Positions 23,730 through 27,855 of a stretch of 64,000 nucleotides of DNA are shown one piece after another. The stretch covers positions 310,001 through 374,000 of the forward strand of contig NZ_CP151767.2 of the NCBI RefSeq assembly GCF_038443705.2, given 5' to 3'. Under the pieces are notes generated by a model. The model made no database searches. It was not told the DNA's origin and worked only from the letters and a program-made list of their open reading frames with translations. The position numbers and the translations under genes are program-made. The DNA comes from Yoonia sp. SS1-5 (GTDB lineage Bacteria > Pseudomonadota > Alphaproteobacteria > Rhodobacterales > Rhodobacteraceae). Positions within the stretch are counted from its first letter, which is position 1. Each line of letters begins with the position of its first letter.

Positions 23730-24485
23730 TCAGACATCGAACTTTTTTGCGAATTTTCCAGGGGTGTAGCCGGTCGCCTTGCGGAAGGAATGGATGAAAT
23801 GGGACTGATCGGCATAGGACAATGACGGCTCTCCGGTCAGGGCCTGCTGCAAGCGCAGGACTTTGAGGAAGTCATGCGGGGCAAACCCCGTCGTCTCTTT
23901 CAGTTTTCGTTGCAATTGGCGTGGCGACAGGTCGGCGATCTCGGCCATATCAGCGACCGAGAAGATGTCGTCGATATTCTGGAATATCCGCTCTGTGATC
24001 GGGTTGGCGATCACAAGTGCCTCTGCGACCAGTCTTTCGACAAATGCAATCAGGATGGCCTGCTGTGCGGCAAAATCCTTGGTGGCGAGGTCCTTGTTGA
24101 CTGCAATCAGTGGCAGGTCGCCGTGATAGGGGGCATTCACCAGCCCATAATCCACTGGCACGCGTGCCTGCTGCCAAACGCCGGGCAAAAAACGGATGTT
24201 CACATAGTGAAACGCGCGCCCAAGGCTTAACTCTTCGGCGGAGGCCCGCAATTTGGTAATCCCGGCGATGCGGGTGTCTGACTGGTCAAAGATGACATAG
24301 GTGCAGGCATCCGGCAGCGCGTGAAATCGGTAGTCATCGGGCAGGGGCGCATCCGTGCGCAGTTCCAGAAACCGATGCACAACCCCACGCAGGTGATCTG
24401 GCGGCATCGCTTCGGTGAATTGCACCGCCTCGGCCGTCTTTTCGCGGCTGTTGCCTTTTGGATCATACATGCCAGTTTTTCCCAT
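23730..24485 (-). CDS. AraC-family transcriptional regulator
   Basis: A 251-residue protein. The C-terminal 90 residues hold the double helix-turn-helix of the AraC family: FSVADMAEIADLSPRQLQRKLKETTGFAPHDFLKVLRLQQAL and SYADQSHFIHSFRKATGYTPGKF. The N-terminal 150 residues resemble the DUF6597-type sensing domain often paired with AraC heads (VVHRFLELR, CTYVIFD, VNIRFLPGVW). Ligand unknown. It is upstream of and on the same strand as the VOC gene, and divergent from the cysS leader. Confidence 0.88.
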   Translation of the reverse strand: MGKTGMYDPKGNSREKTAEAVQFTEAMPPDHLRGVVHRFLELRTDAPLPDDYRFHALPDACTYVIFDQSDTRIAGITKLRASAEELSLGRAFHYVNIRFLPGVWQQARVPVDYGLVNAPYHGDLPLIAVNKDLATKDFAAQQAILIAFVERLVAEALVIANPITERIFQNIDDIFSVADMAEIADLSPRQLQRKLKETTGFAPHDFLKVLRLQQALTGEPSLSYADQSHFIHSFRKATGYTPGKFAKKFDV

Positions 24486-24604
24486 ATCTCGCCTGTGTGG
24501 TTTAGCGGTACGCGCAGCGATCAGAAAGCCATTCTGACCACGCGGATGCCCGCACCGGACCGGAAATCATGGACATGACCCGCATATCTTGATATCGCTG
24601 CCCC

Positions 24605-24649
24605 ATGAAGAGCATCTGCATCATTCCCTGCTGCATTATTATCTGCTGA
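24605..24649 (+). CDS. Candidate 14-residue Ile/Cys leader peptide before cysS-cimA
   Basis: The frame encodes MKSICIIPCCIIIC and then TGA. Ten of 14 residues are Ile (six) or Cys (four), far above normal use. It lies 85 nt before cysS (cysteine charging), which is followed by cimA (isoleucine precursor), so its composition fits both downstream genes. No strong ribosome site is seen, and a leaderless start is possible. Stem-loops between it and the cysS ribosome site could respond to a stalled ribosome. It is classed as CDS but is probably regulatory. Confidence 0.55.
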   Translation: MKSICIIPCCIIIC

Positions 24650-24653
24650 CATC

Positions 24654-24730
24654 TGTCGCGGGTCGCTCTTTCACGTTTCCATCAGTTACTGAAGTTGTTA
24701 AGCCCGCGGCGCAATCCTGTGCGCGAGAGG
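24654..24730 (+). promoter_or_regulatory. Possible attenuator region between the leader peptide and cysS
   Basis: CGCGGG (24657-24662), 8 nt after the leader stop, can pair with CCCGCG (24703-24708). A second stem GCGCA/TGCGC (24709-24724) ends one base before the cysS ribosome site GAGAGG (24725-24730). There is no T run, so intrinsic termination is unlikely; control of translation or Rho access is more plausible. Confidence 0.4.
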
Positions 24731-24734
24731 CGTT

Positions 24735-26168
24735 ATGACACATATCAGGTTCCACAATACCAAGACCCGGCGACGCGAGGATTTCGCGCCAATTGATGCT
24801 GCGAATGTGCGCATGTATTTGTGCGGGCCAACGGTCTATGACCGGGCGCATCTTGGCAATTCGCGGAACGTGCTGCTGTTTGATGTCCTGTTTCGGATGT
24901 TTCGCCATATCTATGGGGACGACCACGTCACTTATGTGCGCAATTTCACCGATGTCGAAGACAAGATAAACGCACGCGCAGCTGAGACGGGCCGTGACAT
25001 CGGCGACATCACCGCAGAAACCATTGGCTGGTATCATCAGGATATGGATGCGCTGGGGGCGTTGCGCCCCACGCACGAGCCTCGGGCCACGGATTACATC
25101 GCCCAGATGGTCGCAATGATTGATGATCTTGTGGCCAAGGGCCATGCCTATGCCGCCGAGGGGCATGTGCTGTTCGCGGTCGCAAGCTATGAAAATTACG
25201 GATCACTGTCAGGTCGGTCCGTGGACGACATGATCGCCGGCGCCCGGGTTGAGGTCGCCCCATATAAGCGTGATCCGATGGATTTTGTCCTGTGGAAACC
25301 CTCAGGCGATGGCGAACCCGGATGGGACAGCCCGTGGGGGCGGGGGCGTCCGGGCTGGCATATCGAATGCTCGGTCATGGCGCATGCGCTTTTGGGGCAG
25401 AGTTTTGATATCCATGGTGGCGGCAATGATCTGCAATTCCCGCACCATGAGAATGAGATCGCCCAATCCGCCTGCGCCCATCCGGAGGGTGAGTTTGCCC
25501 GGTTCTGGATCCATAACGAGATGCTGCTGGTCGAGGGCAAGAAAATGTCCAAGTCCCTTGGCAACTTCTTCACTGTCAGGGATTTGCTGGATCAGGGCGT
25601 GCCCGGCGAAGTGATCCGCCTGGTGATGTTGGGGACCCATTACGGCAAGACCATGGATTGGACCGAAACCCGGCGCGCCGAGGCTGAACAGACTTTGCGC
25701 AAGTGGTACGGGATCCTGCATGGGCATGGTTTCGGCCCCGATCTGGTGGCCGCACTGACGGCGGATGGCAAATGGCAACCGGATACAGAGTTTATTGGCG
25801 TGCTGGCCAATGATCTGAACACACCCGGTGCGCTGGCGCGTCTTCATGTCCTGTCCAAGGGCAAGACCCCGGCTGCACTGGCAGGGTTTGCGCATGGGTT
25901 GGACATGCTGGGTCTGGTGAGCGACTGGGGGGCACTGCCGTTGTTTGACGGGGCCGAGGCCGGGCCGGAAGTTGCGCCCGCGATTGCCGCGCGGGTTGAT
26001 GCGCTGTTGGCACAACGCGCGCAGGCCCGCGCCGCCAAGGACTGGTCTGCTGCCGATCAGGTGCGCGACATTCTGACGGCTGCCGGGGTGCAGGTCACGG
26101 ATGTGGGCGGGCAGGCCACATGGCTGCCCGGTCCGGATTTCGATGCCGCGAAGCTGGGTGATCTGTGA
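24735..26168 (+). CDS. cysS: Cysteinyl-tRNA synthetase
   Basis: Charges tRNA-Cys in the cytoplasm. This 477-residue class I enzyme has [13 protein letters not shown] near the N terminus (HLGN at residues 39-42, zinc ligand Cys 30), [11 protein letters not shown], the [14 protein letters not shown] zinc/cysteine site, [18 protein letters not shown] and [11 protein letters not shown] near residue 270. The C terminus has the helical DALR-like domain ([21 protein letters not shown]). ATG 24735 follows GAGAGG. An Ile/Cys-rich reading frame precedes it, and cimA follows after 67 nt bridged by a 23-codon frame. Confidence 0.97.
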
Positions 26169-26239
26169 TGGGTGATCTATCTCGGGCATCCATGCGGGCG
26201 CCGACCTGTAGCGCGTTTTTGAGGGGCGTGGTTCAATGA
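26168..26239 (+). CDS. Possible 23-codon coupling frame between cysS and cimA
   Basis: The ATG overlaps the cysS stop (TGATG) and the TGA overlaps the cimA ATG (ATGA). It encodes [20 protein letters not shown] plus VVQ, which looks like no protein family. The double overlap would let ribosomes pass from cysS to cimA, but it could be chance, and cimA has its own GAGGGG. Confidence 0.25.
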   Translation: MGDLSRASMRAPTCSAFLRGVVQ

Positions 26240-27855
26240 CCAAAGAACGTCTTTATCTGTTTGATACAACCCTGCGCGATGGCGCCCAGACCCAAGGGGT
26301 GCAGTTCTCCGCCGAAGAAAAACACCGGATCGCTGAAATTCTGGACGGTCTGGGCATCGACTATATCGAAGGGGGCTGGCCGGGTGCCAACCCCACCGAT
26401 ACAACGTTTTTTGCCGAGCCACCCAAGACCCGTGCGACGTTTACGGCCTTTGGCATGACCAAACGGTCGGGCCGGTCGGCGGAAAATGATGATGTGCTGG
26501 CTGCGGTGATGAATGCCGGGACCCCGGCGGTCTGCCTTGTGGGCAAGGCGCATGACTTTCATGTGACCAAAGCGCTTGGCATTGAATTGGCCGAAAACAC
26601 GGCGAACCTGCATGCAAGCTTTGCCCATATTGCGGCCAGTGGGCGCGAGGGCCTGTTTGATGCCGAACATTTCTTTGACGGGTACAAGTCCAATCCTGAT
26701 TATGCGCTGGAGGCTATCCACGCTGCCTATCAGGCTGGCGCCCGCTGGATTGTCCTATGTGACACCAATGGCGGCACCCTGCCTGATGAGGTTGCAACCA
26801 TTGTCACTGCCGTGATCGCATCGGGTATTCCGGGTGATCACGTCGCGATCCACACGCATAATGACACCGAAAATGCCGTTGCCGGGTCTTTGGCTGCGGT
26901 GCTGGCGGGCGCGCGCCAAATCCAAGGCACCCTGAACGGGCTGGGCGAACGTTGCGGCAACGCCAATCTGACAACAATCATTCCGACCCTGCTGCTGAAG
27001 GAACCCTATGCAAGCCGGTTCCAGACCGGCGTGACCCCCGAGGCGCTTAAGGGTCTGCGCAAGGCCTCGCGCATGCTGGATGATATCCTCAACCGGGTCC
27101 CTGCCAAACAGGCCGCTTATGTGGGCGCGTCGGCCTTTGCGCATAAATCCGGGTTGCATGCTTCGGCCATTGCCAAGGATCCCACGACCTACGAACATGT
27201 TGATCCCGCCGCCATCGGCAATAGTCGTATCGTGCCGATGTCAAATCAGGCGGGCCAGTCGAACCTTAAGGCCCGTCTTGCGGATATGGGCATTGCGGTT
27301 GAGGTCGGTGATCCAGCCTTGCCCCGGATCATCGAGCGCGTGAAGGCCCGCGAGGCGCAGGGTTATACCTATGATGGCGCGCAGGCCAGTTTTGAAATAC
27401 TGGCCCGGGACGAACTGGGTATTCTGCCCCGGTTTTTTGAGGTCAAACGCTACCGGGTCACGGTGGAGCGGCGCAAGAACAAGCGCAATCAGATGGTCTC
27501 TATCTCCGAGGCGGTTGTGGTGACCAAGGTTGGCGGCAAGAAGTTTCTGACCGTGTCCGAAAGTCAGGGCCCGGACGGGTCTGATCAGGGCCCTGTCAAC
27601 GCGCTCTCGCGGGCGCTTGCAAAGGATCTGGGACCGTATCAGCAGATTATTGATGATATGCGTCTGGTCGATTTCAAGGTCCGGATCACCAATGGCGGCA
27701 CCGAGGCCGTGACCCGTGTTATCATTGACAGCGAAGACGGGCAGGGCCGCCGCTGGTCGACCGTGGGGGTCAGTGCCAACATCGTCGATGCATCCTTTGA
27801 TGCGCTGGTGGATGCGATCAATTGGAAACTGATCCGTGATGGGGCGGAGACCTGA
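26236..27855 (+). CDS. cimA: Citramalate synthase
   Basis: Condenses pyruvate and acetyl-CoA to citramalate, the first step of the threonine-independent route to 2-oxobutyrate and isoleucine. The 539-residue protein has the HMGL-like start LYLFDTTLRDGAQTQGVQFS (metal and substrate sites), ALEAIHAAYQAGARWIVLCDTNGG, the metal-ligand HTHNDTENAVAGSL, and a C-terminal LeuA dimer/allosteric domain (DFKVRITNGGTEAVTRVIID). The YIEGGWPGANPTD segment separates CimA of this type from 2-isopropylmalate synthase. The GAGGGG ribosome site suits ATG 26236. It sits behind cysS and the Ile/Cys leader. Confidence 0.93.
   Translation: MTKERLYLFDTTLRDGAQTQGVQFSAEEKHRIAEILDGLGIDYIEGGWPGANPTDTTFFAEPPKTRATFTAFGMTKRSGRSAENDDVLAAVMNAGTPAVCLVGKAHDFHVTKALGIELAENTANLHASFAHIAASGREGLFDAEHFFDGYKSNPDYALEAIHAAYQAGARWIVLCDTNGGTLPDEVATIVTAVIASGIPGDHVAIHTHNDTENAVAGSLAAVLAGARQIQGTLNGLGERCGNANLTTIIPTLLLKEPYASRFQTGVTPEALKGLRKASRMLDDILNRVPAKQAAYVGASAFAHKSGLHASAIAKDPTTYEHVDPAAIGNSRIVPMSNQAGQSNLKARLADMGIAVEVGDPALPRIIERVKAREAQGYTYDGAQASFEILARDELGILPRFFEVKRYRVTVERRKNKRNQMVSISEAVVVTKVGGKKFLTVSESQGPDGSDQGPVNALSRALAKDLGPYQQIIDDMRLVDFKVRITNGGTEAVTRVIIDSEDGQGRRWSTVGVSANIVDASFDALVDAINWKLIRDGAET

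Follow-up and report, generated by a model that had tools for sequence, protein, structure and literature searches.

The cysS-cimA gene pair of Yoonia sp. SS1-5 is preceded by a short leader frame dominated by isoleucine and cysteine codons. We propose that this leader is part of a ribosome-mediated attenuator fronting the cysS-cimA operon and answering a shortage of charged Cys-tRNA or Ile-tRNA; the probability of this reading is estimated at about 0.7. The idea of a dual Cys/Ile attenuator had been put forward in an earlier prediction made from the same DNA, and it was strengthened by comparison with related genomes, since the frame is conserved and leaders containing both Ile and Cys accompany cimA in the same gene run. 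Sequence comparison supports the coding frame, its Ile/Cys make-up, the tie to cimA, three predicted helices (helix A, the stop-codon hairpin and stem B) and the spacing of a promoter-like element P2; the spacing of a second predicted promoter, P1, is supported more loosely. The window, i.e., the whole stretch of DNA analyzed, comprises 64,000 nucleotides (contig NZ_CP151767.2, positions 310,001 to 374,000), and the features discussed here are listed in Table 1.

Table 1. Features at the cysS-cimA locus, numbered from the first nucleotide of the window
Feature	Position	Strand	Basis
Predicted P1 promoter: TGGACA 24570-24575, 17-nt spacer, TATCGC 24593-24598	24570..24598	+	Sequence and 172 relatives
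Leader frame MKSICIIPCCIIIC, stop TGA included	24605..24649	+	Sequence read directly; genus and family comparison
Helix A: 24607-24613 with 24665-24671	24607..24671	+	Predicted fold; 172 and 119 relatives
Small hairpin over Cys codons: 24617-24620 with 24632-24635	24617..24635	+	Predicted fold only
Stop-codon hairpin: 24641-24650 with 24655-24663	24641..24663	+	Predicted fold; covariation
Stem B: 24654-24663 with 24702-24711, contains CGCGGG/CCCGCG	24654..24711	+	Predicted fold; covariation
Promoter-like P2: TTTCCA 24676-24681, 17 nt, TAAGCC 24699-24704	24676..24704	+	119 anchored relatives
Hairpin C: 24705-24708 and 24710-24713 with 24718-24725	24705..24725	+	Predicted fold
cysS ribosome-site-like GAGAGG	24725..24730	+	Sequence
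cysS, cysteinyl-tRNA synthetase	24735..26168	+	TIGR00435, 435 bits, cutoff 340
cimA, citramalate synthase	26236..27855	+	TIGR00977, 572.5 bits, cutoff 450

Leader frame upstream of cysS

The leader MKSICIIPCCIIIC starts with ATG at 24605 and ends with TGA at 24647-24649. Direct reading revealed 6 Ile and 4 Cys codons among 14, with tandem Cys codons (TGC TGC) as codons 9 and 10. The original prediction had described exactly such a frame and had named the following genes as cysS and cimA; both gene assignments were corroborated by TIGR00435 and TIGR00977 scores above the curated cutoffs. A search of Rfam gave no match within 24400-24900 up to an E-value of 1. Two other features of the segment 24604-24660 are likewise kept in the genus, namely an overlapping frame (HEEHLHHxLLHYYLLTSVAG) and, in relatives, the 15-nt near-repeat CATCATTACCTGCTG/CATTATTATCTGCTG; the leader probably gives rise to both as side effects. 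The overlapping frame, which reads HEEHLHHYLLHYYLL in the genus, was rejected as a coding frame; its composition is without a tie to the genes.

The cysS gene was found in all 60 genomes of a first set, of which 36 belong to the same genus; one same-genus genome harbors a second, 50% identical cysS elsewhere (G017:C2:2198421-2199740). The cysS locus was read in 30 of these 36 genomes, and every one of the 30 contained the frame at a distance of 126-131 nt upstream of cysS; its commonest form in the genus is MKSICIITCCIIIC. A DNA search with a block from one relative yielded matches in 75 of 295 family genomes; the 28 matches outside the genus that were read are all located just upstream of cysS.

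The family set comprised 228 loci, including 170 further ones chosen by their cysS protein; two loci with too short an upstream sequence were left out and 226 were scored. A leader was defined as a frame of 7-22 codons that starts with ATG, contains both Ile and Cys, reaches Ile+Cys ≥ 4 and is located within 230 nt 5' of cysS. Such a frame was present at 196 of the 226 loci, as compared to 0.0232 per locus expected by chance (4,520 dinucleotide shuffles), and at 168 of 198 loci when the 28 loci picked by leader-like DNA were omitted. At a stricter setting of Ile+Cys ≥ 7, 114 loci were retained and the shuffle frequency was 0.0. Apparently, the short Ile/Cys frame is kept upstream of cysS in related genomes and it undergoes synonymous change: its length changes by whole codons and two synonymous codons each are in use for Ile and Cys. 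The 172 dereplicated leaders, mostly 13-14 codons long, consist of 30% Ile (ATT 360, ATC 289, ATA 9) and 22% Cys (TGC 438, TGT 40) in frame 0 and end with TGA (163), TAA (8) or TAG (1). Stops were found in frame 2 in 11 and in frame 1 in 20 of the 172 sequences; frame 0 contains none by construction. In one relative (L195), about 150 nt upstream of cysS, the leader (core RIIGICIR, read by eye) seemingly continues without the usual stop.

Codon content of the leader and location of cimA

Loci were scored as linked when cimA is located on the same strand within 1.3 kb, and as unlinked when at least 1.1 kb had been read without cimA. A hybrid leader containing Ile and Cys was present at 167 of 190 linked loci versus one of eight unlinked loci (Fisher test, 7e-6, uncorrected for kinship; among the eight unlinked genomes, that of L065 has cimA 1.8 kb downstream of cysS, G131 and G104 have it apart, and the other five show only 32-36% matches). 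The 28 loci whose downstream sequence was too short to score linkage all carried the hybrid leader as well. The sole unlinked locus carrying it is L068, whose leader MDWICCLCRA contains three Cys and one Ile. In a tree of 173 cysS sequences, in which L068 was entered as leaderless by hand, the eight unlinked loci required eight changes, as many as under shuffled labels (mean 7.9); hence, they do not form one clade. Eight separate losses of the leader are not expected by chance, because only 23 of the 190 linked loci are devoid of a hybrid leader. Loci with cimA and no such leader include L095, L097, L107, L109, L122, L144, L192 and L205, and furthermore L206, L219, L221, L236 and L252-L256. 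L136 carries a hybrid leader and no cimA orthologue was seen in its assembly of 870 contigs, in which the contig ends 661 nt after cysS. At L166, a frame starting MTVMVVGLII is found about 70 nt upstream of cysS, preceding a cysS-cimA pair without a Cys/Ile leader; it is perhaps another branched-chain leader.

Outside the family, a class-wide sample of 144 genomes contained cimA in 87 (E ≤ 1e-120) and cysS in 143 (E ≤ 1e-60). From this sample and a first class set, 91 non-family cysS loci were scanned; 51 had a same-strand cimA no more than 1.5 kb away (among them L325, counted as linked with cimA 870 nt downstream of cysS) and 40 did not. At 37 of the 51 linked loci, fewer than 140 nt separate cysS from the end of the longest upstream frame, and such a leader was found at none of them. 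The other 14, which are roomy, include eight with Ile plus Cys frames, a number for which the chance expectation was not computed; six of these eight are L316, L318, L320, L323, L333 and L348. The remaining two, L357 and L359, found by eye with a looser filter applied to seven loci only, have many Ile and a single Cys. Ten additional non-family loci gave no Ile/Cys leader.

Additionally, 25 named loci from Rhizobiales and a few related records were scanned, and Ile/Cys leaders were detected in nine: Roseibium (two), Labrenzia, Hoeflea, Devosia, Martelella, Zhengella, L410 and L414. In four of these, cimA is located 0.7-1.2 kb downstream and in four more 1.8-3.1 kb downstream (contigs matched by number and coordinates); the L414 locus is at a contig end. 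Aureimonas (L411) had neither cimA at E ≤ 1e-100 nor such a leader, and in Sneathiella (L404, L408) and Albidovulum (L401) cimA adjoins cysS without such a frame. The Shinella leader reads MKTVLCIRRSIIR. In Sinorhizobium meliloti Ak57 the leader MKTVICIICRNIIR precedes cysS at a distance of 153 nt, and three GFA genes, pip and cimA (identified by tblastn) follow on the same strand. The genes located between cysS and cimA in S. meliloti (L486:4423-9786) are thus three of the GFA family and a prolyl aminopeptidase gene, all in the same orientation.

In one genus of another family (G044 and G528), cysS and cimA are apart. Here the cysS leader is Cys-only, MTCRCCRKNTTES(L/P)A, and the cimA leader, MNIINAII(T/I)KGLIISG, is Ile-rich and Cys-free. 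This split, seen in a single lineage, is the cleanest sign that codon content may follow the gene. In genus g4 (G038, G524), Cys-bearing frames ending RWCCA or STICPCRCA were found and cimA gave no match at the cutoff used.

These results bear on the alternative that the leader is a Cys-only attenuator for cysS, as in the published proposal for the leader uORFC-8-2, which names Cys alone in the part of the paper available to us (PMC8632094); the Ile codons would then be passengers that maintain an AU-rich, unpaired loop or act as filler of a hydrophobic peptide. In line with this alternative, the core TGC TGC ATT ATT is nearly invariant at synonymous positions within the genus, suggesting an RNA constraint besides codon content. 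Furthermore, no comparable Ile-rich leader was seen at 14 of the 16 separate cimA genes outside the family (those of G044 and G528 being the other two) or at the separate cimA genes of G131, G104 and G229 within it. However, Ile-rich frames accompany cimA in the family, ATC and ATT are both freely used there, the separate cimA of G044 and G528 has an Ile-rich leader free of Cys, and L357 and L359 are rich in Ile with one Cys only. We therefore consider a Cys-only attenuator unlikely and prefer a leader that reads both amino acids. Far less probable is a nascent-peptide or metal/redox sensor, i.e., a Cys-rich hydrophobic peptide that arrests the ribosome or binds a ligand. The encoded peptides are short and Cys-rich and an IICCII core recurs among them, but Ile and Cys are arranged and spaced very differently from leader to leader (ICIC, CCII, IICII, ICCCI) at persisting amounts, and the link to cimA would be unaccounted for.

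Predicted RNA folds and promoters

Among the predicted folds of the proposed attenuator, the strongest conserved pairing is helix A, which is absent from the original prediction. It joins the 5' end of the putative message to RNA located past the leader stop, and a U-rich stretch comes next. For 172 sequences, pairing of the first 11 nt with a 34-nt stretch starting 5 nt after the stop gave -8.62 kcal/mol as compared to -6.89 ± 0.13 kcal/mol for permuted pairs, and the 11 nt upstream of ATG gave -9.13 versus -8.80 ± 0.15 kcal/mol (n = 172). Complementarity thus begins at ATG, with 13 standard deviations for the first 11 nt versus about 2 for the 11 nt before. At least six pairs can be formed in 148 of 172 family sequences, and the covariation test in 119 anchored sequences gave t = -11.9. 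Differing 5' ends have matching partners (GAAGAGC:GCUCUUU, AACCAG:CUGGUU, GGGAACCGC:GCGGUUCUC), and in Hoeflea the helix takes in the start codon (AUGAAAACGGC with GGCCGUUUUCGU). Outside the family, the leader's own 5' end ranked third or better against 22 foreign ones in only 7 of 23 cases; the Cys-only and Ile-only leaders of G044 and G528 failed this comparison. The T-rich stretch CTCTTTCACGTTTCC follows helix A, with a T fraction of 0.41 in the next 12 nt versus 0.21 in the whole post-stop region (n = 172). The original prediction had stated that a poly-T run is lacking. This holds insofar as no oligo-T is present and a consensus scan detected no terminator in the region, but the T-rich stretch has to be set against it.

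The stop-codon hairpin showed covariation when cognate and non-cognate arms were compared (t = -5.4, n = 146). Stem B contains the stem CGCGGG/CCCGCG of the original prediction, located at 24657-24662 and 24703-24708 with its first base 8 nt past the stop, and covaries likewise (t = -5.4, 119 anchorable of 198 sequences). Over 39 aligned sequences, its paired fraction was 89% and the covariation was matched by 7 of 500 shuffles; the outer pair was C-G in 11, G-C in 9, U-G in 1 and unpaired in 18. The first test of stem B, with a wide window, was weak (-21.95 versus -21.32, mean rank 0.44). The stop-codon hairpin and stem B share one arm (24655-24663), 3' in the former and 5' in the latter; the two folds are mutually exclusive and both covary. 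A second hairpin at the cysS ribosome site, which had also been predicted, is present in the predicted fold as hairpin C abutting this site, but its covariation was unsupported (t = -1.5).

A fixed-column covariation scan gave nothing exceeding its parallel control, which we attribute to shifting registers; indel-tolerant duplex tests were used in its place. Fold z-scores were modest (leader -1.73, whole -0.06, stem B region -1.29, Hoeflea -2.84, Zhengella -0.94). Modelled access to the cysS ribosome site increased by 0.050 with a ribosome at the Cys codons versus at the stop (68 up and 27 down of 197); this slight gain would fit, rather than prove, an ON state upon stalling.

In the predicted P1 promoter, TGA precedes TATCGC, which is located 6 nt before the leader ATG. 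This spacing predicts a leaderless message that begins at 24605 or directly beside it. In 172 dereplicated relatives, the upstream columns richest in information were TTG at -36 to -34, TTA at -13 to -11 and C at -1. With one -10 pattern, the hexamer started 12 nt before ATG in 48 and 13 nt before it in 26 relatives, 89 of 172 giving no match; a strict consensus scan of the region detected no promoter at the P1 site. The P2 element, TTTCCA-17-TGT-TAAGCC, has a fixed spacing and a variable intervening sequence in 119 anchored sequences. T was found at -23 in 118, at -22 in 119 and at -21 in 101 of these 119, and the anchor pattern fixed the -10 side (TG.TA/TA.TA), not the -35. P2 lies within the loop of stem B, and its -35 overlaps the U-rich stretch after helix A. 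By eye, a P2-like arrangement was seen in many loci that lack the leader frame; P2 is read as a putative basal cysS promoter. That the region is a DNA-level element only, with two promoters, an operator-like inverted repeat and the frame as a by-product, is highly improbable, since the fixed P2 spacing and the repeat GCGGGC/GCCCGC flanking P2 are outweighed by a frame composition far exceeding shuffles and by complementarity that begins at ATG.

Proposed mechanism and relation to known leaders

The attenuator may function as follows. Transcription from P1 would begin at the leader ATG or directly beside it, and a 70S ribosome would therefore load on the 5' end. When Cys and Ile are plentiful, the ribosome would clear the leader and the leader RNA would close on itself; helix A and the stop-codon hairpin, followed by U-rich RNA, would then lead to low read-through or low cysS translation. 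In the model, the fold containing helix A is terminator-like but weak. A ribosome stalled at an Ile or Cys codon would cover this fold and free the shared arm GCGGGC, which could pair with GCCCGC to form stem B, whereupon the message would continue and cysS and cimA would be made. The 3' arm of stem B is made after the U-rich stretch; hence, the stalled ribosome itself must block the 5'-end fold, and stem B would act on what comes after that stretch. P2 would supply a basal, leader-free message. The parts that we infer are translation of the leader, stalling, P2 activity and the OFF step, which may be weak termination, Rho action or a hidden cysS start.

As in other ribosome-mediated amino-acid attenuators, a short frame is rich in codons for the amino acids of the putatively controlled genes, and two conserved stems, the stop-codon hairpin and stem B, are predicted to exclude each other. 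In Escherichia coli, the leaders thrL (Thr, Ile) and ilvL (Ile, Val, Leu) likewise read more than one amino acid; however, these amino acids are made by the pathway under control or by one directly connected to it, whereas the leader in the window precedes genes that serve two unrelated amino acids, one through a tRNA synthetase and the other through a biosynthetic enzyme. Leaderless polycysteine short ORFs of mycobacteria were reportedly described by Canestrari in 2020. As far as the available parts of the sources go, the mycobacterial ORFs (PMC9031893) and the cys leaders (PMC1262725) share with the leader in the window a leaderless Cys-rich frame ahead of an operon and attenuation that lacks an obvious terminator; they differ in being confined to Cys, cysteine-related genes and actinobacteria, with neither Ile nor cysS-cimA. 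The trpL/peTrpL leader of S. meliloti, a leaderless 14-codon alphaproteobacterial attenuator as well, is translated according to ribosome profiling, but it is the leader of trpE and senses Trp rather than Cys or Ile (PMC10117765, in the part accessible to us).

uORFC-8-2 was described with 145 examples upstream of cysS in Rhodobacterales as a predicted Cys attenuator (RNA Biol 2021, PMC8632094); the accessible part of that paper gives a conserved AUG, tandem, mostly UGC Cys codons, stems and a 3' U-run and proposes ribosome-mediated attenuation. The leader in the window shares the location before cysS in Rhodobacterales, the conserved AUG frame and two tandem TGC codons, the prevalent Cys codon in the family. 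Judged by gene and order, its Cys half is almost certainly uORFC-8-2. The Cys positions of uORFC-8-2 are usually 14 and 15, whereas the tandem codons are the 9th and 10th of the leader in the window and similarly placed in the genus; this may reflect numbering or a different start. As for the 3' U-run, the RNA following helix A is U-rich but interrupted. As published, and within the part available, uORFC-8-2 concerns Cys sensing in Rhodobacterales only, with no tie to Ile, cimA, leaderlessness or other orders (PMC8632094). The original prediction had called the leader undescribed; the cysteine half was already predicted in 2021, and the isoleucine half with its link to cimA is new. Our literature search, covering openly licensed papers, retrieved no description of a leader that combines Cys and Ile.

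Normally, an attenuator leader reads the product of the single pathway under its control. With roughly even chances, one leaderless leader may serve as an OR gate that responds to either of two unrelated amino acids across much of the Alphaproteobacteria: it would place cysS (Cys) and the citramalate route (Ile) under a single stall signal, splitting or joining of the operon would bring a rewriting of the leader codons, and the 5' end of the mRNA, start codon included, would form the closing stem. Since S. meliloti has the leader and ribosome profiling has been published for it, the idea is directly checkable there. Threonine deaminase is inhibited by cysteine, which is a possible physiological reason for coupling cysS with cimA. 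In Roseobacter denitrificans on pyruvate, citramalate accounts for about 80% of isoleucine flux, according to the accessible part of the report (PMC2749216). The mini-gene probably lets the cell raise both cysS and cimA when either amino acid is short, in many alphaproteobacteria. The codon content seemingly tracks the downstream genes and may thus provide a natural test of the leader code, and a dual leader would bear on the question of why cysS and cimA travel together.
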